NCBI GenBank assembly: GCA_963924555.1
Contig: OZ004589.1
Span: forward strand, 3,224,001 to 3,288,000
Source: Crambe crambe
Lineage: Eukaryota > Porifera > Demospongiae > Poecilosclerida > Crambeidae
Direction of reading: 5' to 3'
DNA length: 64,000 bases
Position 1 is the stretch's first letter; each line of letters begins with the position of its first letter. The notes below the pieces were generated by a model. That model saw only the letters and a program-made list of their open reading frames with translations, ran no database searches and had not been told where the DNA came from. A program made the translations under genes and the position numbers. This document shows positions 3,510 through 40,347 of this stretch, one piece after another.

Positions 3510-5014
3510 CTAAGTGAGAAAACTATATTCTGTATTTTCCAGGCAAGCACTATTAAAAGATATTACCCCTGAAACAGAAATCCCCATGATAAAGATTCTT
3601 TTTTTGGTGTCCACACTGAAGGTTCCACTGTCAGTGTTTATTGTGTACGTAAAATAATAATGGCTTACATGGAAAGATGTTACCAAACCGGTTACGGGCT
3701 CTATTTTCAGGGATCTGAGCCACATTGTAGTCAGCTTGAGGAGATTTTTCAACAGCCTATACGTAATAGCGAGAAAGTCAAATAAGAGAACAGTTATAAC
3801 AATCTTCACTGCTGCTATTAGTTTCACATACACGGAAGCAATCCTACAAAATACATGCCTACACAGTTAATGATGATGGTACAGTATAAGCTACGAAGAG
3901 TATTAGCAACCCTAATAATAATTATTAAAAACCATTTCAAGGGATCAGGGCTTTCCAGCGTGGTTTGGGAATAGGGACATTTTTCAAGGAACCAAACCAT
4001 TATGGCTGACACAAATTGAATTTCTAAAGAGTAAATAAATACAAAATTAGCTGGTCCCAAAATCTGTTATCAACAACTTCTGCAGAAAGGAGCAGTTGCT
4101 AATAAGAATAAGAAGCTTCGACTTTACTAAAATTCTACTGTATAGATCCACTTACATTATACTCTAATTCAAACCACTTGTCCCTATCAGCATGCATACG
4201 CTGGACATGTTCTCCAAAATCCTCGATTGGAACAGGCTTGAAACGATCCTTAACTGCATTAAACCATTAAACAATAAATAAACAGAACATTTGAAAAAAG
4301 GGCATTGTTAAGAACAGAAGAAAAGAAGTACTTGTGATACTTATTATCATGAGTAGCAGTATTACTATAACTTACTCACCAATGAATACTGTGTTCTCAT
4401 AGTACTGATCATCCAAGTCTTTTTCTTCGTCATTTGTATCCACAGCTTTGCCTTTTTTCTTCTTTGGAGCAGTGGGAGGAGCTTTCTTAGGCTTTGAGAA
4501 TCGAATGGACTCACTCTTTGAGTGAGCGGGAGAAAAGTGCCGCTCCTTTCTTCGCCTATACCTAAAGTACGTATAAAAATTAATAATGTCACCCCCAAGT
4601 TGATTACTCCCAATAATATGTCACAGTCCCCAGTAAATAGTGCAACATGCTTATGCACATTATTTTGACATTCTGTCGTTTGTTTGTTTGTTTGTTTATT
4701 TGTTTGTTTGTTACTTTTTTGTTTTTATTGTTGTTTTTGTTATTTTGTTGTTCTTTTGAGTTAATTGACATGTGCGAATTTGGAATGATTTCCTTGAGAT
4801 GAAACTCATATAATAATTAATTTTTTGTCTACAAATTTCACATTAAATTGCTGAACAGGATAATAAAAAATTTCCCAACTTTCAGTAGATTGTAATTATT
4901 CTCAAGTTGAAATTTCAACTTACGTCATGAGTATGATGATGGCTATGATGATGACAATCACCACCACCACTAACGCCACTACAACTCCAGCAGCTATACC
5001 AGCGACACTGGAAT
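3510..5014 (-). CDS. Membrane helix and truncated phosphatase-type cytoplasmic exons of receptor A
   Basis: Exon 4924-5014 encodes a Val/Ile-rich membrane helix. Exon 4380-4561 encodes a stop-transfer YRRRKER, a Lys/Pro-rich stretch (KKAPPTAPKKKKGK) and an acidic stretch with DDQYYENTVF. Exon 4156-4253 gives KPVPIEDFGEHVQRMHAD then WFELEYN, and exon 3669-3756 gives ENRARNRFGNIFP. Both match the conserved lead-in of receptor tyrosine phosphatase domains, where a Tyr-Asp pair and the catalytic core normally follow. Instead, the next in-frame exon adds about 19 unrelated residues and a stop at 3510-3512. The phases 2, 1, 0, 1 close exactly. Either the gene has lost its catalytic domain, or the true 3' exons lie beyond the satellite, outside the window. 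Confidence 0.75.
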
Positions 5015-8000
5015 CTAAGAGAGGGAGGTGAGGGGGAAGAATGTTGTTGTACATACGTGATAAGGGAAGAGACATAGGTTTAAGTAATATTTATCATTAG
5101 GTTTCAGTATTGCAGAATTTTTGTGTGCAGTCTTAAGTTAGTCTACATCTTGGACAGTCCATTATAATAACTTTGGAGAGAGACGGGGATCTTGTTTGGA
5201 GGTGGAGGGGAGAAATCCCAAGCTTTACCACCTTCTCTATTAAACTTGTACGTATGTACCTGGTGTAGAAATGATCTTGGCAACTGATGGAGGACTTTGT
5301 GCTCCAATTCCAGCACTAGTGGCAGCTGCCACTCGCACATTGTACGTGAAACTTTGTTCCAATCCCATAATGGTAGCACTAGTGGAGGTATTGCTCACAT
5401 TCACATACATAGCCTCCAGGGATGCTTGTCGCTTTCTACCATTTGTATTGGGAGTGTAAGACACACTGTAATATCTAATAAATCCTCGAGCTTCAATGAG
5501 AGTGAGAGGAGTCCATGTGACTGATATCGTTGTGGGGGAGGTCCGAACCGTTTCAACATTTTTCGGTGCCGTATTTGGAACTACAAGTGATTATTACACT
5601 TCTCTCATCAGAAGTTTAAAATTATTAGAGCAATCTCTTACCAAGTTCTTCAATGAAGTAAGTAGAAAGTGCTACTGCTCCTTGACCAGCCAAATTATTA
5701 GCCCAAATGGTCACATTATATGGAACGCCAGGTGCTAAAATTACAAGGTTGTGATAGAATTAAATAACTGTTACACCATGTATCATTAGGCTTTCCTCTC
5801 TTGCAAAAAATAAAAAAATAATAAGAGGAAAGCCTGGGAATAAGGTTAATTATACATAAATCCATCCACTCTATACTCACTGAGGTTGGTTGCACTGAAC
5901 ATAGTTGTGGTAGTCACTTCACTTCTTGTTTCCTCGTCATTCAGTGGAATGATTTGTACTGTGTAGTTGAGTATCGTTCCACCTGGAGAATCTGGGGGCT
6001 GCCAGGTGAGATGCAGAGTACCATTTTCTCGACTTGTTAATACACTTCTAATTTCACTGGATCCTTTGTTATTATGTGTGCAGTAACAAAACACAATAAA
6101 TCTTGCAGATGATGACCGATACACATCCACATTATGTGGAGGGTCATAGGTCATCTATATTGAGTCAGACAAGTAATACACAGTGTTAGAAAGTTAATTT
6201 CTAGTGGCTAACATAAATCTTATGAACTCACTCATATCTATAGTTTGGAATCTTGTCATATCTACAGTCATTCGGGTGGTAAAAACATTTCTTGACTGTA
6301 TTTCAATGTAGTACATGGTTCCAGGTTGTAGGGATCCTAACATTTGGGTGTACTGTTGCATGTTGACATCACTGAGTATTGAAGGACTGGATATCACTAG
6401 TTGATCAGGAGAAGTTCCATACAGCACTGTGTAAGTTTCAGGTCCTCCCTCACCAATGGGAGAGGAGAAGGACCACTGGATAGTGGCTGCGGTCTCAGTA
6501 ATGGACATGACCTCAACCATCTCAGGAATACGAGGGAGGTTTCCACCTAGCACAAAATTATCGTAATAATGACTTAAAATTGCTATTTTCTTTAACTATT
6601 ACTCTAGTTTGTATAATGTAATCAATTCCATGTAATTAATCTATGAACAATGAAAATCAAGTGTGATTTGGAATTACCTCCAACTTGAATGGTGATTGAG
6701 GACGATTCTTGAAATGAAGGTGCTATAACTGTGCAGGCGTATTTAGTGTTATTAAAACTTGTATTAGCAGTGAAGTTCAGTGCTAGCTGATGCACTCCAG
6801 ACATCTGTGCCACCACATCACTACCTCTCGACCACTGGATCATCACGTTACCCACTACAGAAGAGCAAGTGATTCTTGCATTATCTCCAATTTGAAAGAT
6901 CATGTTGCCAGTGATGGAAATAGCTGCACATAACATTATTATCGATCGTTAAATACAACATTTGACTCATGGTTAGCACCACAGTGACATACCACTTATA
7001 TCCTGCGACATTGGTTGGGAGCTTCCTCTGGTGTTGTTGACTGTGCAGGTGAAGGATCCATTGTAGTCTCTGATATCAGAGCTGGTGATGGAGAGGAGGT
7101 TGTGGTAAGTGGCAGTAGTACCATCATAGAGATTCTGGTTCCATTGGTGTGACGAGCTAGAAGGAGGAATGACATCGCCATCTTTACTCCATATGACATT
7201 AACGACTGGACCACCAGTAGAGGTGCAGTTCAGCGTACGAGATGAACGAGAATAGGACAAGTGAGATACTGACAGTGAACCTGTATGCATTGTATCACAA
7301 ACTTCACGACTATGATGTAATATTTTATAAGTATGTATGACCTCCATTGATGGGATACAATCCAACATACACAGACTGGCTCACACCACTTGCATCTGAC
7401 ACTTCACAGCGATAGAGTCCAGTTGGTCCCACGGCATTGTTCCTCCGATTCAAGATAACGGCACTGGGTCCTCTGCTTCTACTGAAATCAAGCATTGAAA
7501 ATGTACCACTTCCTTCTACTGCACTACTATTAGGAAAGAACCATCCACCGTTAGCACCTCCATCACTTCCTCTACAACAGTCAGTTTCATCAGTGAGGCA
7601 GTAAAGACCATTAGTTAAAGCCTCAATATTGTTTATGACCAAAATGCTGTTATTGGCATACAATGCTCCCTTGAAGTAGAATCCAAAACCTGTTAACAGT
7701 TTCAGACATTATACATGATTTTATTACACACATGCATTAATAGTATATAATACCATTAGGTATAGGAGTGGTGATTAGTATGGGATGGCTATAGGGTCCA
7801 GTACGACCCCCAGCAACAGCTGCCACTTCTACAGAGTAGCTGGAACGAATTGACAATCTGACGATATCAAATGTCCGGGTGTTAGAAGAAGTCAAAGTTG
7901 AAGAGGGTCCATGACGAATCTTGTAACTTATATCACCATTGCGATCAACACAATTTAATTGACTCCAACCGACTGTGTAGACAACCTCTTCATCCACTAC

Positions 8001-10425
8001 TTGAATCACATATGAAACTGAACCAGGACTGGCAGATGGAGCTGTGAAATGTGTCGATAAATAAAACTTAATGTGCAGAAACTGAGTTACCTGATGTATC
8101 AGTGGTGCCTCTAGTTGTAGTGGCCATACTTGATCCTACATCATTGATGACTCTCACAGTGATGGTATAGTCACTGTCCTGATTCAAACCCCTCAGAGTG
8201 TGTGACCTCCTTCTACCATCAGAGATGGAATCTGTACGACTTGCACCTGCAGGAGCTGAACATCTCCTGACAGTGTAACTGTATGTGACCTCAAAGCCAG
8301 TGATGGGGATAACTGTTGTAGATGACACTGTCCAAGTGATGGTGATGGATGTGGCAGTAGTAGCACTAGCAGTGACTGTTAAACTGATTACAGGGTCTGG
8401 TCTTAAACCTGACGATAAACAAAGCATGTATTATAACAGACAACACTAATGAGTTGACTTACGAGTGACTGTAACAGTCCTTGTATTGGCTACACTGCGA
8501 GTGCTTGTCAGGTATTGAGAAGATATCGTTGCTGTGCATCTGTACTGGCCACCATCCCTGCGCCTCAGTTGGTTGAAAGTGAGCTGTTGTGAAGTGGATG
8601 GATCAGAACTACTTCCAACTCTATCCCATTGATATCGGTAAGTGAAGGAAGCTGATAGAGACCCTGCTCCATTGACATTGCATGCTAGCACATAGCGCTG
8701 TCCTTCAGTGGGTTGTCCACTACTTGAGATGGTGACTGAGAAGGTTGGTACTACAAGGTATGATTGAATCATCGCTGAATCAAAATTTGACATTGTGTGT
8801 AACTCACCACTGACAGTGATGACCACATCTCCACTCGTACTAGTGGGACCCTTTGTCCCTCGGCAGTTGTATCGTCCAGCGTCAGTGTCCCTCAGAGGTG
8901 AGAAGGATAAAGTGGATGATGTCTGACCATTTAAAACTTGATCATCCTTCAGCCACTGGTAGCTAGCCATCATGCTAGCATCTCCTCCAGAAACTTGGCA
9001 GGTGAGCGTGTGACTATGAGTCTGTCCAGCTGTGAAGGTACCACCGCCAGTGACTGTGACCATTAGTTGGGGAGGTGGAGGCACAGTTGGGGCCATCGTC
9101 ATGGTAACAGTAGTCGCAGTGCTGGAAGTCATTGGCCCACATTCGCTTGAACTCACTGAACTCACTATATAGTCCATCAATGAAATATATAATTGAAATA
9201 TAATTAAGCTATGTACATTAACTGCATGTATTTTAGAAAATCTTTAGTGACCACTATTAATTATAATTTTAATATGATCTAATGATTATAAAAGTCAACT
9301 AGCTAAGACCCACCTAATTATCGATACAAGCCGCTAAATTTCACACAGCAGCTGATCTGGTTAATGATCTTACTTGATAGTGTGATACATATTCTTTCTG
9401 TTGCATTCATAAGTTCACAGCAGAAACATCCTGTTGGACTCATAGCATTATTTCTTCTGTTCAAAATAACCTGTTGGGTCCCTAGAGTCCTATAGAAATC
9501 TTCATTACCCATAGTATTAGGGACAATACTACCATTAGGATAGTACCACTCCCCATTTCGTTTTCCTGTTCCTTTACAGCAGTTAGTCCTTGTTGTCATG
9601 CAGATCACAGCATCTGCACCCTCACCAACAGAAGTTAGAGGTATGACCTGATTGCTGTTGTAAGTCACACTTCTGAACACAATACTGAGACCTGTAATAA
9701 TAGACCAGTAGCTATCAAAATGACAGCAGCTATGTTGCAAATCCCTCTATATTATCATTGCAAAGCAAGCTACCTAATTATGACCACTGATAGTTGCCAT
9801 AGGATCATGGCCATGCCCTTAGCTGCAGCCATGCACTGTATGATAGTAGAAACTATGCTGCAGGGGGTGACATTTCTACTTCACCAGAACAGCTTGTCTC
9901 TGGAATACCCCACCTCTAATCGATCTGGATGTTAACTTAAAAGATAATATATAAGAAAGTTTTCTGGGATCAGTTTATCAATATCTTTTGACAACCACTG
10001 CTCCTATCACTTGCACTGCCCACGTGTCCATTATCATTAATTTATCTCAGCCATAACTATTTACCTACTAGTTTTTTATATACGGCTACAAGCTGCATCA
10101 GTTCCCTAACCAGCCCTTATAGGTATCAACCAATTGCTAGTTGCACAAGCTTAGGTGTGATCTGCAGTGTGAGCCAAAATACACTTTTTGTAAGGTAATT
10201 CTGGATATCCCCTATAACTTCATGGAGCTGCATAATCAAACCTTTATAGATACAGGTAGGACCTACCTGCATTTGAAGTTTGGTAATGTAGCTCCGTGTA
10301 ACGTCAAAGAGTTCAAGGCAAGCAAACCCTAACTCTGCTAGCTATAAAAACTAGTCACACTTACTTTGTCCTTCCACAGATTTAAGTATTAGGAATAGGC
10401 TGCAAATATATACCAGCACATACAT
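3510..10425 (-). CDS. Receptor A: Ig/Fn3 receptor with truncated RPTP-type tail
   Basis: Eighteen exons fit GT-AG borders with a continuous reading phase (3942 nt, about 1313 residues): 10365-10425, 9374-9691, 8808-9164, 8463-8750, 8091-8408, 7754-8041, 7342-7689, 6993-7280, 6678-6923, 6232-6546, 5881-6063, 5642-5734, 5260-5580, 4924-5014, 4380-4561, 4156-4253, 3669-3756, 3510-3568. Domains in order: signal peptide, Cys-rich Ig-like, Ig, Ig, Fn3, Fn3, Cys-rich Ig-like, Ig, Ig, Fn3, Fn3 (split over two exons), Fn3, one membrane helix, basic cytoplasmic tail. Most ectodomain exons are phase 1-1, so they can be duplicated or skipped without a frameshift. The tail resembles the entry to a receptor tyrosine phosphatase domain but stops early. 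Inferred role: adhesion or recognition receptor on the plasma membrane. Least certain are the exon at 5881-6063, whose acceptor lacks a clear pyrimidine tract, and the last exon. Confidence 0.8.
10365..10425 (-). CDS. Signal-peptide exon of receptor A
   Basis: A 61-nt first exon encodes 20 residues starting MYVLVYICSLFLIL, a hydrophobic secretion signal ending in VEGQ, followed by a GTAAGT donor in phase 1. The next exon (9691 downward) begins in the matching phase and continues with LSIVF, so the join gives Ser at the border. The same exon recurs before units B (broken), C (intact) and D (broken), which supports it as the true first exon. Intron 1 is 673 bp. Confidence 0.82.
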
Positions 10426-10984: not shown

Positions 10985-13900
10985 TAATGTATTACATTGT
11001 GGACACTGTTTCATATTCTCCACCTTGTTCCCCCACAGCACCTTGAGAGGCAACAGGTGCATATGCAGGACATGGGTCCAAGTTAAACTTTTCTTCATTG
11101 ATGTCTGGAAGTGGTGGCTGTATCTTGCCTGTCTTCCCTTCATTAACATTCTTAACCACTTCATACTCAACACCTTCGTTTATAGTGTCATACAAGGGAG
11201 GAATCTTATTTTCTAGTTCAATGGAGTTACTATTGTCTGGTCAACATCGCCAGGAGCCATCTCTTGTTCTTCCTGCTGGTTCCTCCCACTGACTTGTCCA
11301 TAAGACACAGTGTATGTCCTCACAAATCCTGGCCTCCGTGAGAGTTAATGGGGTCCAGAATACCTCCATGGTTGATCCTAATATCCTTGACACTCTCACT
11401 CCCATTGGGGCAATACTCGGGGCTTAATTAAATCATGAATAAAACAATAACTACAGTTTGATGCTTTAATACTCACTCTGTTCTTCAATAAAGTAGATAG
11501 AAGTTATAGCATTTCCTTGACCTGCCAAATTATTTGCCCAAATGCTTATATTGTAAGGGATGCCAAGACCTACATTTCATCAAATAAGTTGGAATAGCTA
11601 GCAGATATCACAATCAAACAAACTTAAAACAGCTATATAGTTAGTTAGCTATGAATGCCATTCTAGTAGATCTGTTGATATGTAACTTTCTACAACTTAC
11701 TGAGGTTGGTTGCACTGAACATAGTTGTGGTAGTCACTTCACTTCTTGTTTCCTCGTCATTCAGTGGAATGATTTGTACTGTGTAGTTGAGTATCATTCC
11801 ATGGAGAATCTGGGGGTTGCCAGATGAGATGCAGAGTACCATTTTCTCGACTTGTTAATACACTTCTAATTTCACTGGATCCTTTGTTATTATGTGTGCA
11901 GTAACAAAACACAATAAATCTTGCAGATGATGACCGATACACATCCACATTATGTGGAGGGTCATAGGTCATCTATATTGAGTCAGACAAGTAATACACA
12001 GTGTTAGAAAGTTAATTTCTAGTGGCTAACATAAATCTTATGAACTCACTCATATCTATAGTTTGGAATCTTGTCATATCTACAGTCATTCGGGTGGTAA
12101 AAACATTTCTTGACTGTATTTCAATGTAGTACATGGTTCCAGGTTGTAGGGATCCTAACATTTGGGTGTACTGTTGCATGTTGACATCACTGGGTATTGA
12201 AGGACTGGATATCACTAGTTGATCAGGAGAAGTTCCATACAGCACTGTGTAAGTTTCAGGTCCTCACCAATGGGAGAGGAGAAGGACCACTGGATAGTGG
12301 CTGCGGTCTCAGTAATGGACATGACCTCAACCATCTCAGGAATACGAGGGAGGTTTCCACCTAGCACAAAATTATCGTAATAATGACTTAAAATTGCTAT
12401 TTTCTTTAGCTATTACTCTAGTTTGTATATATGTAATCAATTTCATGTAATTAATCTATGAACAATGAAAATCAAGTGTGATTTGGAATTACCTCCAACT
12501 TGAATGGTGATTGAGGACGATTCTTGAAATGAAGGTGCTATAACTGTGCAGGCGTATTTAGTGTTATTAAAACTTGTATTAGCAGTGAAGTTCAGTGCTA
12601 GCTGATGCACTCCAGACATCTGTGCCACCACATCACTACCTCTCGACCACTGGATCATCACGTTACCCACTACAGAAGAGCAAGTGATTCTTGCATTATC
12701 TCCAATTTGAAAGATCATGTTGCCAGTGATGGAAATAGCTGCACATAACATTATTATCGATCTTTAAATACAACATTTGACTCATGGTTAGCACCACAGT
12801 GACATACCACTTATATCCTGCGACATTGGTTGGGAGCTTCCTCTGGTGTTGTTGACTGTGCAGGTGAAGGATCCATTGTAGTCTCTGATATCAGAGCTGG
12901 TGATGGAGAGGAGGTTGTGGTAAGTGGCAGTAGCACCATCATAGAGATTCTGGTTCCATTGGTGGGACGAGCTAGAAGGAGAAATGACATCGCCATCTTT
13001 ACTCCATATGACATTAACGACTGGACCACCAGTAGAGGTGCAGTTCAGCGTACGAGATGAACGAGAATAGGACAAGTGAGATACTGACAGTGAACCTGTA
13101 TGCATTGTATCATAAACTTCACGACTATGATATATTTTATAAGTATGTATGACCTCCATTGATGGGATACAATCCAACATACACAGACTGGCTCACACCA
13201 CTTGCATCTGGCACTTCACAGCGATAGAGTCCAGTTGGTCCCACGGCATTGTTCCTCCGATTCAAGATAACGGCACTGGGTCCTCTGCTTCTAATGAAAT
13301 CAAGAATTGAAACTGTGCCACTTCCTTCTACTGCATTACTATTAGGAAAGAACCATCCACCGTTAGCACCTCCATCAATTCCTCTACAACAGTCAGTTTC
13401 ATCAGTGAGGCAGTAAAGACCATTAGTTCCAGCCTCAATATTGTTTATGACAAAAATGCTGTTATTGGCATACAATGCTCCCTTGAAGTAGAATCCAAAA
13501 CCTGTTAACAGTTTCAGACATTATACATGATTTTATTACACACATGCATTAATAGTATATAATACCATTAGGTATAGGAGTGGTGATTAGTATGGGATGG
13601 CTATAGGGTCCAGTACGACCCCCAGCAACAGCTGCCACTTCTACAGAGTAGCTGGAACGAATTGACAATCTGACGATATCAAATGTCCGGGTGTTAGAAG
13701 AAGTCAAAGTTGAAGAGGGTCCATGACGAATCTTGTAACTTATATCACCATTGCGATCAACACAATTTAATTGACTCCAACCGACTGTGTAGACAACCTC
13801 TTCATCCACTACTTGAATCACATATGAAACTGAACCAGGACTGGCAGATGGAACTGTGAAATGTGTGATAAATAAACTTAATGTGCAGAAACTGAGTTAC

Positions 13901-15238
13901 CTGATGTATCAGTGGTGCCTGTAGTTGTAGTGGCCATACTTGATCCTACATCGTTCATGGCTCTCACAGTGATGGTATAGTCACTGTCCTCATTCAGACC
14001 ACTCAGAGTGTGTGACCTTCTACCATCAGAGATGGAATCTGTACGACTTGCACCTGGAGGAGCTGAACATCTCCTGACAGTGTAACTGTATGTGACCATA
14101 AAGCCAGTGATGGGGATAACTGTTGTAGATGACACTGTCCAAGTGATGGTGATGGACGTGGCAGTGCGAGTAGCGACTGTTAAACTGATTACAGGGTCTG
14201 GTCTTGAACCTGAAGATAAACGAAGCATGTATTATAAAAGATAATACCAATGAGTAGACCTACGAGTGACTGTAATGGTCCTTGTATTGGTTACACTGCG
14301 AGTGCTTGTCAGGTATGGAGAAGATATCGTTCCTGTGCATGTGTACAGGCCACCATCAGTACGCCTCAGTTGGTTGAAAGTGAGCTGTTGTGAAGAAGAT
14401 GGACCAGAACTACTTCCAACTCTGTCCCATTGGTAAGAGATGGAAGCTGATAGAGACCCTGCTCCATTGACACTACACATTAGCACATAGCGCTGTCCTT
14501 CAGTGGATTGTCCACTACTTGAGATGGTGACTGAGAGGGTTGGTACTATAAGGTACGATTGAATCATCGCTGAATCAAAATTTGACATAACTATAACTCA
14601 CCATTGACAATGATGACCACATCTCCACTTGTACTAGTGGAAGGACCCCTTGTCCCTCGGCAGTTGTATCGTCCAGCGTCAGTGTCCCTCAGAGGTGAGA
14701 GGAATAAAGTGGATGATATCCGACCATTTAAAACTTGATCATCCTTCAGCCACTGGTAGCTAGCCATCATGCTAGCATCTCCTCCAGAGACTTGGCAGGT
14801 GAGTGTGTGACTCTGAGTCTGTCCAGCTGTGAAGGTACCACCGTCAGTGACTGTGACCACTAGTGGGGGAGGTGGAGGCACAGTTGGGGCCATCGTCATG
14901 GTAACAGTAGTCGCAGTGCTGGAAGTCATTGGCCCACATTCATTTGAACTCATTGAACTCACTATGTAGTCCATTAATTTGCAATGAAATAAAATATAAT
15001 TAAGGCATACATGCTATAGCTATGCATATTAAATGCATGTATTTTAGAAAATCTTTAGTGCTCAATAATTAATTATAAAATCATTAATGATTTTATAAGC
15101 AATGGAGTCTAACAGCAACCACAACAACTAAAACATCCATGCAAAACAATAAATTATGTACATATAATAATAACCATGGCAGGAGTTCAAAAGCTTTAGC
15201 TTTAGCTTTACTGATATTCATGCATTGTTGTATATTAA

Positions 15239-16253
15239 GGGGGCTCCGACATGACTACGCGCATGCGCAAGTAAGGATAAGCACTAATAACAGGATCATT
15301 ATTGTGGAAAACGAGCTGAAAAACCACAAAAAGGTTAGGAATGCAACTTTGTACAGGTAGTACATGAACCATACAAGCAGGAAAAGTCATAATAGTAAAT
15401 AATTCATTCAATTGCATGTAGCTATAATAGCTAGTATAGGTAGCACTCCTGAAGAAAAATAATGTAGGCTATCTATAATTATTTCCAGTGCCAGATTCAG
15501 AGCCTATTCCAGAGCCAGTGTCACCGGAAGAGTCTGGCCCGAGCGAGACTAACTCCAGAGCTAGTCTGGGTTAGCAGACCTCCGGTACAAAGAGGTGTTG
15601 AGATCCAGACGAGTCCGAAGTGCAGTGTTGAAGAGAGAGAGCCAGATTCTCCCGAGTCTGGCCAGGATCAGGGCCGCCTCACCGTGGGATGAGCGATCAC
15701 TCGACTAACAGTACCGCATGGACAGAAAGACTCGGCATCCTGCCGGATATAGTGGGTGGGGCTGGGGTGGGGCTGTGTAGCGGTATACTTGCAGACGCCA
15801 GTAAATCCAGAAGAGTCCATACTTTGCATGTTGTTTCCTCATGGTCTGGGGTAGACAGCTACGGATGGGATTAGGAAATCTTCAAAAACTGAAGTGATCA
15901 GCGCTTTCAGCAGTTCATTCTAAAGCTAGAAATTCGTGTATCTAGGAAGCTAGGTTATATATAGACAATTCGATCCGTAGTTGTCTTATAAGCATGCAAA
16001 GGAAGGATGTGAGACTACTTTCAACATTGTAAGTTTAGCACAAAAAAAGAAGTATTAATTTTAGTCCTTTTAGCTTCAAGCGGTGCTAGCCTCTCGGTAA
16101 CTGCCCCGTTTTTCCTAGTTCTTGGGAGATCAACGACCGTAGATAAGTCCTCCACTGTGGTCTTTGTAGCTTATCTCTGCAAGTGTCGGTAGTCTCGATA
16201 TCAGTCCCTAGCAACCTGCAAAACAAGCGCGTGGGCGGGATGTCAGAGCCCCC
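15239..16253. mobile_element. Non-autonomous TTAA-flanked DNA transposon (piggyBac-like)
   Basis: This 1015-bp insertion sits in intron 2 of pseudogene B. Its ends are inverted: GGGGGCTCCGACAT on the left, and the complement of GGGGGCTCTGACAT on the right. It is flanked by TTAA (15235-15238 and 16254-16257), the target duplication typical of piggyBac elements. The matching position in receptor C (about 21145-21170) lacks it and shows the empty site. No transposase frame is present. Confidence 0.8.
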
Positions 16254-17039
16254 TTAAGCAATTAGGAAGAAACAAACTCAGAAGTAAAATTCTTACTATG
16301 ACAATTAAATAAGACCCACCAAATTATTAATACAAGCACCTGCTAAAACCACTAAATTTTACGCAACAGTTGATCTGGTTAATGATCTTACTTGATAGTG
16401 TGATACATATTCTTTCTGTTGGATTGACAAGTTCACAGCAGAAACATCCTGTTGGACTCACAGCATCATTTCTTCTGTTCAAAATAACCTGTTGGGTCCC
16501 TCGACTCCTATAGAAATCTTCATTACGATCATTTCTGGGTACCATACTTCCATTAGGATAGTCCCACTCCCCATTTGGTGTTACATCCTTACAGCAGTCA
16601 GTCCTTGTCGTCATGCAGATCACACCATCTTCACCCACACCAACAGAAGTTAGAGGTATGACCTCAGTGCTGCTGCTGTAAGTCACATTTTTGAACACAA
16701 TACTGAGACCTGTAAAAAATAGACCATAATAATAGCAACATTTGCACATTTGCCTAAATCCTCTGAATTTTTGAATGCTGGTCTGCTTGCTAACTAATCC
16801 AATGACAACTGATAGATTTTGGGGCATACACTGTAACTATAGCCGCTGTACGATTCTGCATGCTAAGCCGCCCATGTCATCTGTATACTGCTTTATGAAT
16901 CACATGTGGTCATGATAATTATTATTATGCACTGACTGACATCTCAATCCAACGTAAACCTGCACAAATCCTGAAAAGGTTGCCACCATCTTTACTACAA
17001 GTTCTTTTGATGCTGCTAAAGACACTTAAGTGTTTTGTT

Positions 17040-17071
17040 GTTTGTTTGTTTGTTTGTTTGTTTGTTTGTTG
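17040..17071. repeat. GTTT microsatellite
   Basis: Eight or so copies of GTTT/TTGT in intron 1 of pseudogene B. Comparable short runs lie at 4679-4715 (receptor A intron) and 22243-22270 (receptor C intron 1). Confidence 0.8.
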
Positions 17072-24200: not shown

Positions 24201-27200
24201 TGATGACATCATTATTTTTGGGAAGACAAAACAGGAACATGATAATGCTCTAGAAGCCGTCTTCAATCGGTTTGCTAAGATTGGTCTGACTCTCGACAAG
24301 AAGAAGTGTGAATTGAGCAAGAACTCTTTGTCATTTTTTGGATTTGTTTTCTCCTCCACAGGTGTTTCTCCTGATCCGGCAAAGGTGAAAGTAATTCATG
24401 AAGGACAGCCACCATGAGAGAATTGACAAAAAAGAATACTCATTTCCAGTGGGGAGATGATCAGCAACAAGCCTTTCAGAGAGTTAAAAACTTACTCACC
24501 AGTGATACTGTAACGGCATATTTTGATAACAACAAAAGAGCTGGTTACAGATGCATCACCATGGGGATTGTCAGCAATTCTCTCACAGCATACATCCGGT
24601 CACAATGATCGCAAGATAGTTGCTTTTGTCAGTAGATCACTGTCAGATGTCGAACAGAGATATTCTCAAACGGAAAAGGAGGCACTCGCCATTGTCTGGG
24701 CGGTGGAACGTCTTCACTTGTATCTCTGCGGCGGTCATTTTCAACTCATAACGGATTGCAAACCAGTGGAGTTGAAATCAAAGCCACCTGCTCGAATTCA
24801 GAGATGGAATTTGCGTCTCCAAAAGTACGATTTCTCAGTAGTCCACACAAATGGAATCGACAATCCATCTGATTTTCTGTCAAGGCATCCTAGTCAATAT
24901 ACAACTCCACAACAAGAGCAAATGGCTACAAGATACGTGAACTACATCTCCTCCCATGCTGTTCCCAAGGCAATGTCACTATCTGAGCAACAAAAGAGGA
25001 TGTCACATTGCAGAAATTGGGAGATCTCATCTGCACCAATGCTGGGACTCACTAAATGATTTATCTGACCAGACAGGAGTGAATATGACTGAATTGAAGC
25101 AGTTTTTAAAGATTAGTGAGGAATTGACAGTGAATGACAAGGCCAGCATTATATTGAGAGGATCTCGAATTGTCATGCCAGGAAAGCTAAGAGAAAGAGC
25201 AGTAAACATCGCTCATGAAGGCCATCAGGAAGGCCATCAGGGCATAGTGAAAATCAAGAAACATATCAGAGAAAAGATATGGTTTCCATGTCAGGATGAC
25301 GAAATGAAGAAAGTTGTCAGTGACTGTTTAGCCTGGACCAGACCAACATCCTGATCCATTGCAAATGTCTCCATTGCCACCAGACCCTTGGCATACTGTA
25401 CATATTGATTTTTGCGGACCGTTCCCAACTGGAGAGTGTTGGTTATAATTGGTGCATATTCGAGGTTTCTTGAAGTCGACATAGTTCGGTCAACCGCAGC
25501 CAAAGGGACAATTAGCAAGTTGCAGAGGATCTTTTCTACACATGGCATCCCAAAGATTGTCCAGAAGTGACAATGGTCCACCTTTCACAAACCATGGATT
25601 CAAGATATTCATGAATGAGTATGGCATCCAACATCAACGATGTACTCCCCTATGGCCACAAGCAAATTCAGAGGCTGAGCGGTTCATGAAACCATTGACG
25701 AAAGCTGTTCGATCAGCTCGTTTAGAAGGACGTGAATGGCACAAACAGTTGTATGTTTTTCTACTTAACTATCGTGCTACTCCACATGTGACTATAGGAG
25801 AGTCTCCATCCAAATTGCTTTTTAATCGTATGATCAAGACCAAACTTCCACAACTGGCACCAGAAAATAACCAAAGTGATAAAGACTTACGACAAAAGGA
25901 TGAAAAAGCCAAGGAGAAGATGAAAAGATATGCTGACAAGAAAAGAAAAGCACAGCCATCGAAACTTGTAGTCAGAGATATGGTGCCGATGAAGCAAAAG
26001 AAACATACAAAGTTCTCCAGCAAGTTTGATCCGGTGCCATTTCAAGTTGTCTGATTGAAGGGTACTATGGTAACAGTTGTTCGAAACAGCAAATATGTAA
26101 CTTGAAATGCATCTCTATTGAAAGCAATATGCTATCCTGGTAACGTAGACATTGAAAGCAGTGAGGAAACTGATGATATTGTGGATGGCGATGAGAACAG
26201 TGTACAACCTTCAGCTCAAAACACGACTCCAGTGGGCAGACGATACCCAACTTGTGAACGTCGAAACTTTCAGCATTACGGTCAGAACATTTAAAATCAG
26301 TAGTGTGTAACTCCCCAGTATTTATCAAAGAAGGGGAGGGATGTAGTGTTTAGTGATTTATCAGAGAGTGCGGTAGCACTCTCTATGTAGGGATGACTCG
26401 GACAGCCGCACACGCCACCTATAGACTAATACAAAAGTGAAATTCTAGTTCCACCACTTAGACCTAACAAAAGCTACTGTGAATGATTATCCAGCCTACT
26501 AGAGCCTACTACAACGTGCAGATCAAGTTTCAGGACCAGGGATCTTACCGTTTCAGAAATACAGCAAGCAGGTAAATCGCTGGATTCTTCTTCTTCTCTA
26601 TTATTATTATTATTATATTCTTCTTATTCTTAGACAACCATATCTCTCGAACCACTCAAGCTACAGCTATGATTTCTGGATAAATCCACTCCAAATTCTA
26701 CCAACTACGATCTTTTCTACTCGTTGATCCTCGAAAGAGTCGATGAAAAAGGAGACACTACGGAGCACAGCACTCGACTAATTCAATTAGGAAGCCATCT
26801 TTTCTATAATACGCATGCACATGTATTTGATATCCAATTATTCGAAATTATAATATTACTCAGCTGTCTCTAGCTAGCTAGCTAGATAATGATGATAGAC
26901 TACTGTATCGACTCAGGGATATAGATTCACGACGGTAGACTCTATTTCAGCATCTTCCTTCGACCTCCAAGTATAGCTCAACAATAACACAACACCTTGA
27001 CTCATTGATAATGATTGGGCTTGTATGCTGGAGAACTATTGGAGAACTATTCTTCTTTCATCTGTCCCTGCATACACATAGAAGAATGAACTCTATACAT
27101 AGCTAAAACCATAAAAGAGAGGAAAAAAGACCAGGAACAAGTAAGGGAAAAAGCATTTCGTGAAATGAAAAAAAGATGTAGGGATGACCACTGGTCAAAA

Positions 27201-28433
27201 AAGTAAGGAAACAAGAAGGATGGAAATGGGATCAATCTTTGTTCTGTATATCCAGCCAACAATCCCTACATATACGTCGGGTAGCTTCAGTGTAGTAATG
27301 TACGTACGTATATGTAGGGATTGTTGGCTGGATATACCGAACAAAGATTGATCCCATTTCCATCCTTCTTGTTTCCTTACTTTTTTGACCAGTGGTCATC
27401 CCTACATCTTTTTTTTCATTTCACGAAATGCTTTTTTCCTTATAATCTATCACAATGGTTATAATTATACTGTAATAATGTATCACTCTTGTTATTTCCT
27501 TGTATCATTAACATGTTATGATGTAATAGATAGACATAATAGACCTCATGATCATGTATGTAGAAATTGGAAAAGAAATTAAAGTATCCATTATAATCTA
27601 GTATCATTGGAATACTACACTGGGAATGTACCAAGTCAGTTAACAACCTGAATAGATATCGAAAACAAAGTCATTGTTGAGGCTATATGATCATAAGTGA
27701 GGAGTACATTGAAATGACCACTGGCTGCTCGCTCGCCCAACTAATGCTATACGAGCATCTCTAGTAATTGTGTATTGTAGTTATAGCTATTTATTTTCAA
27801 GCACAAACAATAAATTAATCTGTCTTGCAGTTTTGTAGCAGTCTAGAGGATAACACACAGATGTTGTAACGAAAGATTGAGTCCAGGAAACCATCATGTG
27901 TGTATAATAGGAGTATATCTGCATGTGGTTGGGTCTATGAGTATGTCATGTCAGTGCAAATGCAAGTAAAACTCTCCTAATTATAGCTTAGCAATATGAC
28001 AAAATATATACTTTTATTACAACAAATTCAACCACCATAATCAGCAGCAGAAATCCAAACTACCATCTTTCTACATCCTTACAAACTTGCCTACGCAGGT
28101 CTATTCAGCTAGAGCACCTAAACTCCAGAGGCTCTGAAAAGTATAACCAATTGCTAAGCTGATGCAACTAACAGTGTGAGAAAGCTTCCAAAATACACAC
28201 TTCTGAATACAGGAACTTTAGATACAGGTAGGACCTACTGCATTTGAAGTTTGGTTATGTAGCTCCATGTAACGTCAAAGTTATGAGGGGGTAGCTATTC
28301 ATAATTACTCTGTATTCAGAATTATACAGGCAAACTCTAATTCTGCTAGCTATTATTACTAGCCACACTTACTTTGTCCTTCCACACATTTAAGTATTAG
28401 GAATAGGCTGCAAATATGCACCAGCACGTACAT
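18258..28433 (-). CDS. Receptor C: Ig/Fn3 receptor with tyrosine-motif tail
   Basis: Exons: 28373-28433 (signal peptide, intact), 21282-21605 (Cys-rich Ig-like), 20634-20990 (Ig), 20296-20577 (Ig), 19930-20241 (Fn3), 19572-19874 (Fn3), 19265-19459 and 19073-19165 (split Fn3), 18258-19018 (Fn3, membrane helix, tail). Internal exons are multiples of three in phase 1, giving about 895 residues. Compared with receptor A it lacks the block Cys-rich Ig-like, Ig, Ig, Fn3. A Gly-Ala-Ile-rich membrane helix is followed by a tail with YDTI, VEYEVV, a PPLP motif and YETV near the C-terminus. VEYEVV fits the ITIM pattern. Intron 1 is about 6.8 kb because a Helitron/gypsy nest (22382-27764) lies in it. 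An upstream-Met frame at 21057 also offers a hydrophobic start (MHGSFIVLVVVVAV), a possible alternative first exon. Inferred role: cell-surface recognition receptor that signals through SH2 or SH3 partners. Confidence 0.8.
18495..18571 (-). other. Possible in-frame intron in the receptor C tail
   Basis: A GTATGT donor after GACAA and an ATGCAG acceptor before AAATAATAAC would remove about 78 nt without changing frame. If retained, it adds a hydrophobic stretch (YVLLIILLTTVAIANY) just after the membrane helix; if spliced, the tail runs directly from LTQDK to NNNSIELENK. Relic D carries the same sequence. Splicing is the simpler reading because the insert is unusually hydrophobic for a tail. 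Confidence 0.5.
22569..23372 (+). CDS. Chimeric frame: STPR-like repeat fused to gypsy zinc knuckles
   Basis: 267 residues. The first 115 or so are highly charged repeats of about 23 residues (units such as RRTESKEQRKTRLAKRNVRD and RRAESAEHRAARLEQ), resembling the STPR repeat that often accompanies Helitron proteins. From about residue 117 the frame passes into gypsy gag: CRKCGLNWPH...C and CRNCGKANHFARMC zinc knuckles (about 167-200), then an acidic end. The short Helitron at 54964-55685 carries the STPR part without gag, so the fusion point near 22914 marks where gypsy sequence joined the Helitron. The frame stops before the protease. Whether it is translated is unknown. Confidence 0.55.
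   Translation: MEPREPEKKRRRAPEHLLETDEQRRARLHERNERDRARRRTESKEQRKTRLAKRNVRDRDRRRECTESAEDKAARAEQVRARRRAESAEHRAARLEQMRGHNNERLATESEQECYHAFQGPRPEASKNQARGIEQLSHEKINYLCEPKKTTGHSSQHKKRTFSQNQCRKCGLNWPHVESPCPAAGKNCRNCGKANHFARMCWSNKTHYTQQGQPQQKSAHKHKSQVHQISVTPPQDDNSDDEEFLFVVGQGVNDKKALKVTVEFQSA
22914..26341 (+). pseudogene. Broken gypsy (Ty3-type) retrotransposon inside the Helitron
   Basis: It keeps the order gag knuckles, protease (IDTGAS near 23377), reverse transcriptase (about 23653-24410, with VSDDIIIFG), RNase H (about 24540-24900), integrase HHCC region (about 25200-25350) and DDE core (about 25400-25800). These lie in at least five frames separated by frameshifts and stops; one deletion removes the RT-RNase H border near 24412. 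No 5' LTR or gag N-terminus is seen. A purine tract (about 26328-26341) precedes the presumed 3' LTR start TGTAGTG at 26342. It is related throughout to the intact element at 48165-52624 but clearly older. Confidence 0.85.
26342..26640 (+). repeat. Presumed 3' LTR start of the broken gypsy
   Basis: Begins TGTAGTG right after the purine tract. It contains a perfect hairpin, AGAGAGTGC...GCACTCTCT, at 26363-26384, followed by GTAGGGATG. The same hairpin and flank occur at 54373-54400. The right end cannot be placed because no 5' LTR survives. Confidence 0.45.
27147..27440. repeat. Fold-back (long palindrome) element
   Basis: Two arms of about 131-135 bp (27147-27277 and 27305-27440) are nearly perfect reverse complements around a loop of about 27 bp. 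The arms start AAGCATTTCGTGAAATG and include GTAGGGATGACC and AATCCCTACATATAC. The element lies inside the Helitron, downstream of the gypsy relic. It shares its outer flank (AACAAGTAAG) and internal GTAGGGAT with the fold-back at 59121-59376. Confidence 0.88.
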
Positions 28434-34683: not shown

Positions 34684-35409
34684 CCGAGCATTCCAAAATT
34701 ATTACTGATCCACCCCCCCCCCCCCCCACACGCAGAAAACGTTTCCTTTGTTTGTGTGGCAACGGGCCTAGCAACCCAAATGATGTCACAAAAATGCACT
34801 AGCAACAGCCAATAGAGCCCACCTCTCCATGTTGACAAAGACCTGTTCTTAATTTTTCCAAGAAGGAAACCGGCCCTGTAGGGCCCGAAATATGCCGCTC
34901 TATTCGCACTAGAGTGAGACACCAATTATCAGACACCACCTATAATCGGACGCCGTATTCCAGTTTATAAAGCTCCCCCAAATATAATTTAAGTACATAA
35001 AAATAGTAGTTTGAGTGTCTAAAAAATATTCCCAGAAAGAGTAGCTATGCTTCAAAATTACCATTGCAACAGTTGATTGTTTCACAGTCCGAAATACATC
35101 GATTCTCGCATGCTTACCTAAATGTTCGAACACTTAACAAAAACCTTGCTTTCTAGTAATTCAAGGCATAAATTATCCCACAAATGATTAGATTTGTGTC
35201 ATAGCTATCACGTTAGAGAGAGATAAACTGCTATGCTGGCATTCTCATGATCAAAGAATATACGGACGGCCGATCTTACGCATGCGCGCATAATCAATTG
35301 TCGATCGATCCGACCATAGATATAAGAGGTTTACGGGATTGGAAACGGATCACGTGCTCTCGGCATAGATTTACTGTATGTATGAAATAAATTTTAGCAA
35401 GTTTAAATT
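34684..35409. other. Non-coding stretch upstream of the glycosyltransferase
   Basis: A C-run lies at about 34711-34728. At 35314-35360 is a copy of the dispersed repeat ATAAGAGG...GGGATTGGAAACGGATCACGTG that also occurs at 56543-56590 and, in part, at 40405. No gene is seen. Confidence 0.5.
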
Positions 35410-36489: not shown

Positions 36490-37481
36490 TGACTTGAATT
36501 GTTCTGTACCCCATGCTCAGAAAGTACGTTTAAAAAAGTTGAATTTCTTCCAGGTTATTATCATGGTTTAGATGAAAAATATTGTTGTAGCTATTCATAC
36601 AATGGGATAGCAGCTAAATGATAATTATTAAAATTTGTTGGCTTGCTTATTGTGTAGCTATAGTAATGTATTACATTGTGGACAGTTTCATATTCTCCAC
36701 CTTGTTCTCCCACAGTACCTTGAGAGGCAACAGGTGCATACACAGGACATGGGTCCAAGTTAAACTTTTCTTCGTTGATGTTTGGCAGTGGTGGCTATAT
36801 CTTGCCTGTCTTCCCTTCATTAACATCCTTAACCATTTCATACTCAACACCTTCGTTTATAGTGTCAGGAATCTTATTTTCTAGTTCAATGGAGTTATTA
36901 TTTCTGCATTTGGATGTAGAAAGAATAATTAAATAATTAGCTATCGCTACTGTAGTTAAAAGGATTATTAATAACACATACTTGTCTTGTGTCAATCCAT
37001 TTCTTCGACCTCTCACTAGTACAGTGACTATGATGACTACCACAATGATAGTGATGGCCACTACTATCACTATGGCCACCACACCTCCTATGATAGCTCC
37101 TGTATTAGGCAATCCAGTTCCTGTAGTGGTCGATGGTGGCTGAACTATGACTATGCGACTCCTCACTCCTGCACCAGCTACAGCGTTAGCGCACACTTGA
37201 ACATAGTAAGCCTCTTCTTCCTGCAATCCTGCGACTACTGTCCGATCAACATCGCCAGGAGCCATCTCTTGTTCTTCCTGCTGGTTGCTCCCACTGACTT
37301 GTCCATAAGACACAATGTATGTCCTCACAAATCCTCTGGCTTCAGTGAGAGTTAATGGGGTCCAGAATACCTCCGTGGTTGATCCTAATATCCTTGACAC
37401 TCTCACTCCCATTGGGGCAATACTTGGGGCTTAAATAAATCATGAATAAAACAATAGCTACAGTTTGATGCTTTAATACTC
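36490..37481 (-). pseudogene. Receptor D: 3'-end relic of the Ig/Fn3 receptor
   Basis: Matches receptor C from its 3' flank through tail, membrane helix and last Fn3 exon (acceptor near 37431), then ends abruptly at about 37481. The tail has a CAG-to-TAG type stop at 36795-36797 just before the PPLP motif and a 9-nt deletion that removes the first tail tyrosine (YDTI). The rest of the body exons are absent, but a broken signal-peptide exon survives at 40287-40347. Confidence 0.85.
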
Positions 37482-38578
37482 TTCAGTTAGGTGTAGCACT
37501 GGGTCAGGCAGGTCAGGTATTTGCCTGATCAATACAAGCCAACACATCCCGATGAGAGAGAGTCTGGTAGATACAACTGTATAGTCGATTTGGATGACTT
37601 CAGTCCTATGATTTGTTTACTGACACCTCCCAGATTCTTCATACCATTCAGTATTATGGACCATTGCACAAAACACTGCTACACCTCTGCTGAACAGTGG
37701 TCCTAGCCAAGTCCTCACTTGCTACCACAGCTAAAAGCTTGAAAATGAGTCTAGAATTGCCAGTCCATAGTCCAGTCCAGAGTCCAGAGTGTAGCCACAA
37801 ACCCACATATCAAATTACACCTGCCGTTTTGATGACATCACAAGGAGCTGTAAACCAGATACTTTCTACACTTTAATCATTTCTAACAAGGTTTTGTGCA
37901 CATCTTATCACATATTAAAGTTCAAACTGTGTGATTCAGATACATAGCAATTTGGGAACAGACCATTTGCATCGAGATATCCGGTGTACCAGTTTGAGAA
38001 AAGTAGTGCCAATGAAACTTGTGTAACTTTTTATTGGTTAAATATACAAGCAATCTGATTGCTCCACACTGTGGTTAAGCCTCCATTCAAGTCTCAGAAA
38101 CCTTTTATGAGTAGAAAGTTTGCTGTGTCACTCCAAAATAGGTGATTTTTTGTGACATTTCATTGTCCTGCAGTTCAGTGTGTTTTCAAGCTAGACTCAA
38201 GTTTTGTGCATGATTATATAGTTCATACTGTTGGCTATCCCAGGCCTGTACACAGGGGAGGTTTTTGGGGGTTACTGGTAACCCCCCTTTGATATTAATT
38301 AATTAGAAATCTGCATTTAATAACTTGATGATCAAAGTATAGTAACAGTGCATGCATGTAGGAATGTGTATTTCCATTTTCCTTTAATTAACAGTGTGAA
38401 CAACTTTGACAGTGACAATCACATGCCTTTGTCTCATGCTGCTGCCATCTAACTAGCTTTACATGCTTGAGCATTTTAGTTAAAAAATGAAGAGAAAAAA
38501 TACTACAATTCAGTATGCTCATGTGAAAGATCTGTGGTCATTAAAATGGGTGTGGTTTTCCATGTGTATTAACCTAGT
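37482..38578. other. Non-coding stretch
   Basis: No gene is seen. A GGTCAGGCAGGTCAGG motif near 37502 is related to the repeat family at 35410-36449. Confidence 0.5.
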
Positions 38579-39132
38579 AGGGTAGGTGTGGGTATTATGA
38601 GTCAGCTAAGTATTGTTGCTCTTTTCTTGGAAATGGACTATCTTAGAATCCTGAAAATTGCTCCAGATATAAAATAGGTTATGTAGAACTAATGTGTGGA
38701 GAAAGTAATAAAAATATTGCATCTTGCAGATAGGAGGCATGATCTTACATGAGAAGGTATTATGAGTCATAGGTATGAATTATGAGTCGCTTGCTTGATT
38801 TTTGCCTCTAACAATTGATAATGTAGCTAAGATTTCTACAAAACAAAAATAATAACCTTAGATTACTTTAAAATTCATTTTTTACTCCATCTTGTAGCAT
38901 CATTGGTTCCCTGCGTTTTTTTTATTCAGATTGGTCACGATTATACCCATTTTTAAACTTCTTATTTAAGATTATGTTTATGCATGAATAAGGCATTCTT
39001 CTGGATGATTTTATTTGATCAAAAGACCAAAAAAATTATTAAGTTTTCATATCTAAAGTATCAACTCTTGTAGATTATTATCAAGTAGTGAACCCATAAT
39101 AGGGACTGACTCATAATACCCACACCTACCCT
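38579..39132. mobile_element. Short inverted-repeat element (MITE)
   Basis: About 554 bp bounded by AGGGTAGGTGTGGGTATTAT on the left and its complement on the right; the inverted match runs 26-27 bp and includes GAGTCAG. Subterminal copies of TATTATGAGTCAT lie inside (about 38758-38790). No coding frame is seen, and the target duplication is not resolved. Confidence 0.8.
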
Positions 39133-40286
39133 AACCCCCTTTTCGAAATCCTGTATCCACATGCACAATATCAAAGGCCTAATCCATTTTGCATTGAGAT
39201 GTCTGATGTACTGAAGATAGCTAGGTACCCATGCCGAAATCTCACTAGTTAACCCTGCCACATCAGAGAGGGCACAGAATTTTTGCTGAATTAAAGGTAA
39301 AGAGAATGATCACCAACCTTTCATTTAGTAAGTATCACAAAAATGAAAGCATTTCTGAGATATCACAGTAATGTTAAATGTTCCACTCCAATGCAAGCCA
39401 CCAGACAGGAAGTGATCATGTAATTAATGTAAACTGAATGCAAGTCAAATCTTGTTAACTATCGTAGATTTTCTAATTAATGCATTTGAAAAAAATAATT
39501 TCAATTTTCAATTGGCATGCTATTGGAGTGCGAAATTGATCTTATGGTATTTTGGCGCCATTATCAGAGTGGTGCCTTGTTGATGCGGTCGACCAACAAC
39601 TGGACGTTTCAATCTCCAGTCCATACTGATTACAGGCTTGGAATTAGGACACTGAAGATCCTCACCCAATGCCTTAGCGAAATAATACTTCAAGGACTTC
39701 GACATATTCAAGTTTGCTGGATGACAGTTGCTGGACGGACAGCTGCTACAAAGCTGGCATGTGCATGCTGCTGGTGGGCCGTGCAATTTCATTCTAATTA
39801 TCGAAGTGCCAGAAAAAATATTGCAATATTGATTTTTGGCGCCATATTAATTTTTATTTAAAGTGCGGTTTTGGCGCTTATTTAAGAATGACGCACTAAT
39901 TACTCGGTATACAATATACTAAGTTTAAATTCAGCCACCATAAATCAGCAGCAGAATGCTAACTATCATCATCCTTACAAGACTTGCCTATGCAGGTCTA
40001 TTCAGCTAGAGCACCTAAAAATCCAGAGGCTATGAAAGGTATCAACCAATTGCAAATCACATCTAAACTAACAATATGAGAAGGCTTCCAACACTTTGTA
40101 AGGTAAGTCAGGGTAATCATGAATACCCCCATACTGACTTCATGGAGCTACTTCAAATACAGGTGGGACCTACCTGCATTGAAGTTTACTCGATAGCTAT
40201 GAGGGGGTCTACTCATAATTACCCTGTATTCAGACTTACCTTATATAAACAGTTCAAAGCAAGCATACCCTAACTCTCCGCACTTA
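39133..40286. other. Non-coding stretch in relic unit D
   Basis: From about 39930 it resembles the regions upstream of receptors A-C (copies at 10090, 17390 and 28030), including the block with GACCTACCTGCAT. No gene is seen. Confidence 0.55.
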
Positions 40287-40347
40287 CTTTGTCCTTCCAC
40301 AAAATTAAATATCAGCAATAGGCTGCAAATATGCACCAGCGCGTACC
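40287..40347 (-). pseudogene. Broken signal-peptide exon of relic receptor D
   Basis: Aligned with the first exons of A and C up to the same GTAAGTG donor. The start codon is changed (ATG replaced by ACG-type sequence with a 1-nt insertion), and stops appear in the hydrophobic part. Together with 36490-37481 it shows that a complete fourth unit once existed here. Confidence 0.75.

Follow-up and report, generated by a model that had tools for sequence, protein, structure and literature searches.

The 64-kb stretch of the Crambe crambe genome analysed here (the window; C12:3224001-3288000, C12 being the contig that carries it) contains four units of a tandem receptor-gene family, A to D, all of which lie on the minus strand. 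Genome-wide exon searches, which covered 143,139,886 bases in 119 contigs of a single haplotype, place the window within a tandem receptor-gene array of approximately 1 Mb (C12:2.51-3.52 Mb). An initial annotation had described four head-to-tail units in the window; units A and C do splice cleanly (A through its juxtamembrane exon), whereas B proves to be a pseudogene and D a stub. The features of unit A are as follows, with exon names (IgA, Ig1, Fn1 and so on) assigned in this analysis and with window positions unless a contig is named.

10425-10365, minus strand: signal exon of A, from splice sites and a continuous frame
4924..10425, minus strand: ectodomain and transmembrane (TM) exons of A, from splice sites and a continuous frame; Pfam fn3 in five stretches and Ig_3 in three stretches
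9691-9374, 9164-8808, 8750-8463, 8408-8091 and 8041-7754, minus strand: first exons IgA, Ig1, Ig2, Fn1 and Fn2
7689-7342, 7280-6993, 6923-6678 and 6546-6232, minus strand: middle exons IgB, Ig3, Ig4 and Fn3
6063-5881, 5734-5642, 5580-5260 and 5014-4924, minus strand: last exons Fn4a, Fn4b, Fn5 and TM
3669..4561, minus strand: start of the cytoplasmic part, with juxtamembrane exon 4561-4380, receptor tyrosine phosphatase (RPTP) wedge 4253-4156 and N-terminal D1 exon 3756-3669
2233..2313, minus strand: RPTP D1 exon (...SDYINASYVD)
C12:3212667 to 3223420, outside the window, minus strand: further D1 and D2 exons
1..2187, no strand: 17-bp minisatellite in an intron of the phosphatase part of A, 46 bp from exon D1a and extending past the window

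A clean spliced frame runs from the signal exon of A through the juxtamembrane exon. All 12 non-signal ectodomain exons are phase 1-1, in agreement with the earlier description of nearly all ectodomain exons, and the TM exon is phase 1-2. With IgA and IgB counted as immunoglobulin (Ig) domains, the domain order is Ig-Ig-Ig-Fn-Fn-Ig-Ig-Ig-Fn-Fn-Fn. On the cytoplasmic side, the wedge is 69-73% identical to that of five other RPTP units (78-85% in DNA over 67-118 bp). The D1 exons supply HCSAGVGRTG, a motif present in A and six other units, as well as WPDHGVP, QTP and a small YIGAQ exon, and D2 contains WPE and SDGVGRTG. All of the hallmarks of a receptor tyrosine phosphatase are found, namely a TM segment, a wedge, a D1 with HCxxGxxR and WPD, and a D2, in cytoplasmic exons that were identified one by one and not as a single joined model. 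By these motifs, A is a receptor tyrosine phosphatase whose D1 is apparently active and whose D2 is of WPE type. The phosphatase-type tail initially ascribed to A is therefore upheld by a full RPTP exon set, in a unit that is longer than the window; it ends near C12:3212667, past the window edge, and most of its phosphatase exons lie outside.

Unit C is the second cleanly spliced member in the window.

18258..28433, minus strand: unit C, an intact 865-aa gene model with a clean spliced frame
28433-28373, 21605-21282, 20990-20634, 20577-20296 and 20241-19930, minus strand: signal, IgA, Ig1, Ig2 and Fn1 exons of C
19874-19572, 19447-19265, 19165-19073, 19018-18571 and 18492-18258, minus strand: Fn2, Fn4a, Fn4b, Fn5+TM and tail exons of C
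18258..18492, minus strand: tyrosine tail of C, 76 aa, with LYDTI-x5-YEVV, CPAYAPV and EYETV, ending in STI
22548..26291, plus strand: decayed Gypsy-type element in intron 1 of C, with broken frames and stretches of 65-67% DNA identity to an element at 48-52 kb

As first proposed, A and C have related ectodomains on unrelated tails. Identity between them by exon is 74% for IgA, 87% for Ig1, 80% for Ig2, 88% for Fn1, 88% for Fn4a and 72% for Fn4b, with Fn2 (56%) and Fn5 (42%) as exceptions, and an RPTP wedge with D1-D2 exons in A stands against the 76-aa YxxI/V tail of C. The observation that C is short of exactly four exons of A also holds, these being IgB, Ig3, Ig4 and Fn3; in addition, Fn5 and TM are fused into one exon in C. 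The signal exon of C (28433-28373) sits beyond the decayed retrotransposon. The related element, at window 48170-52429 (plus strand), is an unbroken 1420-aa Gypsy-type frame flanked by a repeated 57-bp stretch.

The tail of C reads PPLYDTINEGVEYEVV...CPAYAPV...GEYETVSTI and has four YxxI/V motifs. An immunoreceptor tyrosine-based activation motif (ITAM) has the form YxxL/I-x(6-12)-YxxL/I, and the corresponding inhibition motif (ITIM) the form [ILVS]xYxx[ILV]; on its sequence, the tail of C is ITAM-like only. A canonical ITIM, VEYEVV, occurs once in C and once in B, the pattern being short and no proof of function. A second tyrosine-tail type, found in units Y6 and Y7, is 32% identical to the tail of C and retains YxxV-x5-YxxI and CPAYMPV, so that a YxxI/V-x5-YxxI/V pair is common to both types despite this low identity. 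Potential readers of tyrosine motifs exist in the genome, since it encodes SH2-kinase genes on C15 and the following gene on C18.

C18:6539084-6540942, minus strand: SH2-SH2-protein tyrosine phosphatase (PTP) order, an SHP/corkscrew-like gene

The remaining two units of the window carry tyrosine tails in damaged genes.

10995..17870, minus strand: unit B, a pseudogene with an A-like ectodomain up to Fn4a, then Fn4b, Fn5 and a tyrosine tail like those of C and D; the TM stretch is lost
36672..40357, minus strand: unit D, a stub with signal exon end at 40288, Fn5+TM at 37429-36982 and a tail from 36903

Unit B has a broken signal exon and frameshifts in Fn3, Fn4a and Fn5, and its TM stretch is gone; the tail of D is interrupted by a TAG following GKTGKI. 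Nonetheless, B provides the sharpest example of one ectodomain on two tails. Over A 5895-8143, 15 consecutive blocks of 150 columns, intron sequence among them, show 96-100% identity to B; in the next three blocks identity drops to 49-70%, giving the shared tract a sharp end at the Fn4a exon. Chance similarity is excluded among these units, as tblastn E values of B and C exons against A or C queries range from 1e-3 to 3e-68 and are mostly no greater than 7e-25, the weakest (1e-3) belonging to the signal fragment of B.

Additional units, which the initial annotation had suggested seeking beyond the window, were found in number. The array at C12:2.51-3.52 Mb contains at least 18 phosphatase-tail places (at least 17 close D1 exons and one fragment, from the genome-wide and a regional search) and 20 tyrosine-tail loci, comprising 10 C-type places and 10 Y6-type loci (11 matches), and every phosphatase-tail place and every tail of both tyrosine types falls inside this interval. 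The D1 exons are 72-100% identical to that of A, and three are on the plus strand. The D1 and Fn5 counts are lower bounds, as the best 150 of 280 candidates were scored for D1, 150 of 511 for Fn5 with the A query and 150 of 322 for Fn5 with the query from unit R5; in the searches for C-type and Y6-type tails, all candidates were scored. When A, C and phosphatase exons were compared with C12:2994001-3308000 and the loci L034 and L035, 208 matching places were obtained, nearly all within tandem units. Stops occur within the match in five of the 10 Y6-type tail loci, in a piece beside a sixth, and in unit D. L034 (Fn5 at C12:3370637-3370939) has a full ectodomain and a tyrosine tail with an in-frame TGA in Fn5, and would be either a pseudogene or a null allele.

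Family-related exons were also seen beyond these units. Two partial IgA-type exons lie upstream of D at C12:3295134 and 3299696 (minus strand), with no other family-exon match nearby. An A-type Fn5 exon at C12:2232671-2232982 (minus strand), 88% identical to that of A, is found 0.28 Mb outside the array, with no downstream tail found. A second family with IgB-like exons, approximately 50% identical, occupies C12:0.08-1.07 Mb on the same chromosome; near it, PTP matches among those listed fall only between 0.07 and 0.38 Mb.

To relate ectodomain to tail across the array, Fn5 places were paired with the closest tail lying downstream of them, using 26 of 56 Fn5 matches (minus strand, C12 2.23-3.39 Mb; plus-strand places left out). 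Twenty-three were linked, and those at 2232671, 2968747 and 3111375 were not. Two Fn5 subtypes are cleanly apart: against the Fn5 of R5, R-type places are 73-100% identical and A-type places 46-50%, whereas against the Fn5 of A, R-type places are 46-51% identical and A-type places 82-100%. A-type Fn5 is followed by a phosphatase tail in three places and a tyrosine tail, always of C type, in five, and R-type Fn5 by a phosphatase tail in four and a tyrosine tail, always of Y6 type, in eight (Fisher p = 1); three C-type or other Fn5 places have tyrosine tails only. With stop-bearing Fn5 or tail places and 2833225 left out, the ratios are 3:4 (A-type) and 4:4 (R-type). The subtype of this membrane-proximal Fn3 module is thus not predictive of tail class. 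Ig3 identity shows no significant association with tail class (p = 0.37; 25 of 147 matches used, 23 linked). In A itself, the Fn4b-Fn5 DNA (5280-5739) is 86.5% identical to tyrosine-tailed L034 and the wedge matches phosphatase units only, which places the tail switch in A between Fn5 and the wedge; the intervening TM and juxtamembrane exons have a DNA match to neither phosphatase nor tyrosine units.

Exchange is also apparent for individual modules. In Fn3, phosphatase unit R2 shares 75-77% identity with A, B and L034, compared with 39-42% with phosphatase units R1, R5 and R6. In Fn5, tyrosine units Y6 and Y7 share 77-88% identity with R1, R5 and R6, compared with 46-51% with A, C and L034. 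Synonymous divergence was uneven between exons in five of six unit pairs (R1-R5, p = 0.09), in a test applied to six of the 12 available pairs with rounded counts and with saturated or mismatched exons partly excluded. For example, synonymous change between A and R2 is 10/69 in Fn3 against 170/398 elsewhere (p 4e-6), and between R1 and R6 it is 34/62 in Fn1 against 70/442 elsewhere (p 1e-10). Six of seven single-exon trees need two tail changes, and the Fn3 tree needs one. A single RPTP-tail clade was rejected in five of six trees by the approximately unbiased (AU) test, for Fn2 (p 3e-6), IgB (7e-51), Fn5 (0.001), Ig3 (0.019) and Fn1 (0.032), the Ig3 and Fn1 rejections failing correction for six tests. 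Rows shorter than 60 aa were dropped from the trees, and X1 and X2 (IgA), X1 (Fn1, Fn2, IgB, Ig3), B (Fn3) and R2 (Fn5) were removed by hand; the IgB tree was also built without C, R3, Y6 and Y7, whose IgA the search had picked up. The array therefore displays both uneven exon divergence and incongruent exon trees. Taken together, these sequence comparisons show that tails and modules are exchanged by recombination. The proposal that phase-1 modules can be swapped and tails exchanged is consequently supported well past the window, by identities, trees, tail linkage and the A/B tract.

With respect to constraint, pairwise ratios of nonsynonymous to synonymous divergence (dN/dS), obtained by simple counts on short exons, are 0.24-0.34 for the tyrosine tails (three pairs: C versus B, D and L034; Y6 and Y7 do not differ). 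The phosphatase exon gives 0.18-0.70 (five pairs), IgA 0.31-1.18 (eleven pairs) and Ig2 0.68-1.20 (five pairs, B or L034 being involved in four). Ratios with B and L034 were not used for positive selection. By these values the tails are under tighter constraint than the distal modules Ig2 and, in general, IgA, positive selection not being proven.

The domains IgA and IgB, neither of which Pfam recognises, have the C, W and C landmarks and are likely of Ig type. For the distal domain, a Pfam search at E up to 10 was empty, and NCBIfam returned a single unrelated match far below the cut-off. A profile of it matched TIM-1 and CD47 weakly in the PDB (E 0.1-0.4, among 11 listed), and an AlphaFold model from five window rows had a mean confidence (pLDDT) of 39, too low for use. 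The IgA distal domain has two sequence-variable loops, one of which varies in length too.

In terms of function, the anatomy is that of paired receptors, in that closely related ectodomains and different tail classes occur in one cluster, with a pseudogene (B) as the closest partner of A. Two signalling classes, a shared ectodomain pool and a single recombining array lead us to a reading, held at slightly better than even confidence, in which the array would encode paired-type receptors that present related binding faces on either a phosphorylatable tail or a phosphatase. One Ig/Fn3 ectodomain family is carried on two endings, RPTP or a short YxxI/V tail, and modules are swapped, also across the tail boundary, which this reading ascribes to gene conversion and unequal recombination acting on adjacent phase-1 exons. 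Related ectodomains may bind the same ligand class; Src-type kinases could phosphorylate the tyrosine tails, and these would in turn recruit SH2 proteins, for example the SHP-like phosphatase of this genome. RPTP units with matching ectodomains would oppose the tyrosine-tail signal at the same contact; the two receptor classes would be co-expressed and antagonistic.

Several observations weigh against this paired-type reading. Unit B, which matches A best, is a pseudogene, the Fn5 of L034 has a stop, and half or more of the ten Y6-type tail loci carry stops. An intact, near-identical pair is not among the units read; for the second RPTP/tyrosine pair (C12:2753k and 2793k), the information consists of positions and identities. 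C-type tails occur with one Fn5 subtype (5/5), as do Y6-type tails (8/8). IgA, considered as evidence for tail exchange, was rejected for that purpose, as a single RPTP clade is not rejected in its tree (AU p 0.10), and IgA identity leans toward association with tail class (p = 0.08; 18 of 150 matches used, 16 linked). The strong IgB and Fn2 rejections derive largely from the A/B event. Inner exons such as Ig3 (dN/dS 0.30-0.62) overlap the tail range, and ratios that involve B or L034 say little on selection. Finally, the tails depart from strict ITAM spacing, that of C having a spacing of 5 and I or V at position +3, and a canonical ITIM occurs once in C and not at all in Y6.

Vertebrate paired receptors such as KIR and SIRP likewise combine related ectodomains with tails of different function within a gene cluster, and signal through ITIM tails or ITAM adaptors, whereas in the array one side would itself be a phosphatase. 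LAR-type (R2A) RPTPs combine an Ig and Fn3 ectodomain with one TM segment, a wedge and tandem D1-D2, their N-terminal Ig block being followed by an Fn3 block. Unit A shares these components and differs in its interleaved Ig and Fn3 domains, which depart from the R2A block order, in its tandem array, and in that its ectodomains are also found on tyrosine tails. If pairing is true, the principle of setting receptors with similar binding faces against each other arose in sponges, where one arm is a receptor phosphatase, and sponge cell recognition gains a defined one-megabase locus; even without pairing, the array is a clear instance of exons moving between signalling classes.

The leading alternative, which we consider unlikely though the best placed of its rivals, is that LAR-like adhesion phosphatases simply expanded in tandem; the tyrosine units would then be offshoots with another last exon, without paired signalling, and exchange a by-product of homology. 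Recombination is to be expected in any tandem array, a good number of the units are damaged, and C9 and C13 have clusters of PTP exons as well. However, two tail types that are 32% identical keep the spaced tyrosine pair, and dN/dS is low in the tails of C, B, D and L034, so these look like functional signalling tails; moreover, RPTP and tyrosine tails each occur on both main Fn5 subtypes.

A slightly weaker alternative, compatible with the paired-type reading, is an allorecognition locus whose polymorphic ectodomains would tell self from others, as in Hydractinia Alr or Botryllus fuhc. The size of the array, its pseudogenes, module exchange, variable distal-domain loops and tyrosine motifs would all fit, and a review describes ITIM- or hemITAM-type motifs at both known loci. 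In the descriptions available, however, phosphatases elsewhere are separate signalling proteins and not recognition-receptor tails, as with the CD45-like RPTPs and shp-1 of Botryllus ampullae. In Alr, single-pass receptors of Ig type are grouped together with pseudogenes in a single chromosomal region, and the parallel drawn at first with it stands as an analogy rather than as a sign of membership in the Alr family, resting on clustered Ig-type receptors, pseudogenes and ITIM/hemITAM-type tyrosine-motif tails. The C. crambe units differ in their several Fn3 modules and in that the same ectodomain family is also on receptor phosphatases, and the Alr text consulted does not mention phosphatase tails. 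The FcoR of Botryllus fuhc resembles the array in its Ig ectodomains, its ITIM, hemITAM or core YxxI/L/V tails and a link between binding and output that can change. In FcoR, as described, this change occurs via splicing or allele between motifs, whereas here a motif tail alternates with a catalytic phosphatase; FcoR also lacks Fn3 in that description, so the ectodomain make-up differs. A recent review reports no conservation among the proteins proposed for allorecognition in sponges, cnidarians and ascidians. An allorecognition or immune role, as the initial annotation proposed, stays a hypothesis, plausible in the case of allorecognition for a sessile sponge. A stronger version is rather doubtful, namely that the array is the sponge allorecognition receptor locus, a self-contained recombining recognition system at the base of the animals. 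Binding faces would be shuffled between genes for phosphorylated receptors and genes for phosphate-removing ones, and each new specificity could gain an on- and an off-type receptor without adaptors.

Receptors for microbes or symbionts, with diversity driven by bacteria rather than conspecifics, are about as improbable as the allorecognition alternative. Distal-domain diversity and the reported expansion of other sponge receptor families, such as SRCR, are in keeping with such a role, yet no link between the array and microbes emerged in this analysis. It is considerably less probable that tails are swapped in RNA too, with splicing between neighbouring units placing one ectodomain on either ending: phase-1 ectodomain junctions, phase-2 TM-tail introns in both A and C, and head-to-tail order on one strand would permit it, but both A and C possess a separate signal exon and ending. 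Least credible is an artefact of tandem-placed haplotypes or misassembly, which the highly similar copies (Y6/Y7 at 97-99%, the A/B tract) might suggest, given that the units differ in exon content and tail, that between-unit identities are mostly 40-90%, and that the assembly is described as HiFi plus Hi-C with a quality value (QV) of 58.1 and 18 haplotypic duplications removed (PMC12166358).

In the titles and opening abstract lines of the open-licence literature searched, no description of this array or of phosphatase/tyrosine-tail pairs in sponges was found; RPTPs with Fn3 ectodomains were previously known in sponges from Amphimedon. Ig-domain surface receptors are likewise described in another demosponge, Geodia cydonium, where the tail is a tyrosine kinase, whereas no kinase tail was seen on the units examined. 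Kinase exons do occur near the array (C12:2.39-2.63 Mb), and one gene, L035, was checked as a candidate kinase-tailed member; the 10 kb upstream of it had no family ectodomain and a weak TM match only, and L035 was rejected. A tyrosine-kinase array was also seen at C16:4.97-6.05 Mb, with 26 places among the matches listed, of which 20 fall within open frames 525-879 aa long.

Three other open frames were noted in the window. Between C and D, a single-exon exostosin GT47 frame of 431 aa occupies 33406-34698 (minus strand). A 503-aa frame at 42880-44388 (plus strand) has a signal-peptide-like stretch near its start and a sub-threshold Pfam match only. Lastly, a 1325-aa frame at 60021-63998 (minus strand) has repeats that match chlamydial polymorphic outer-membrane protein repeats (Pfam PF02415, TIGR01376), here on an animal chromosome.

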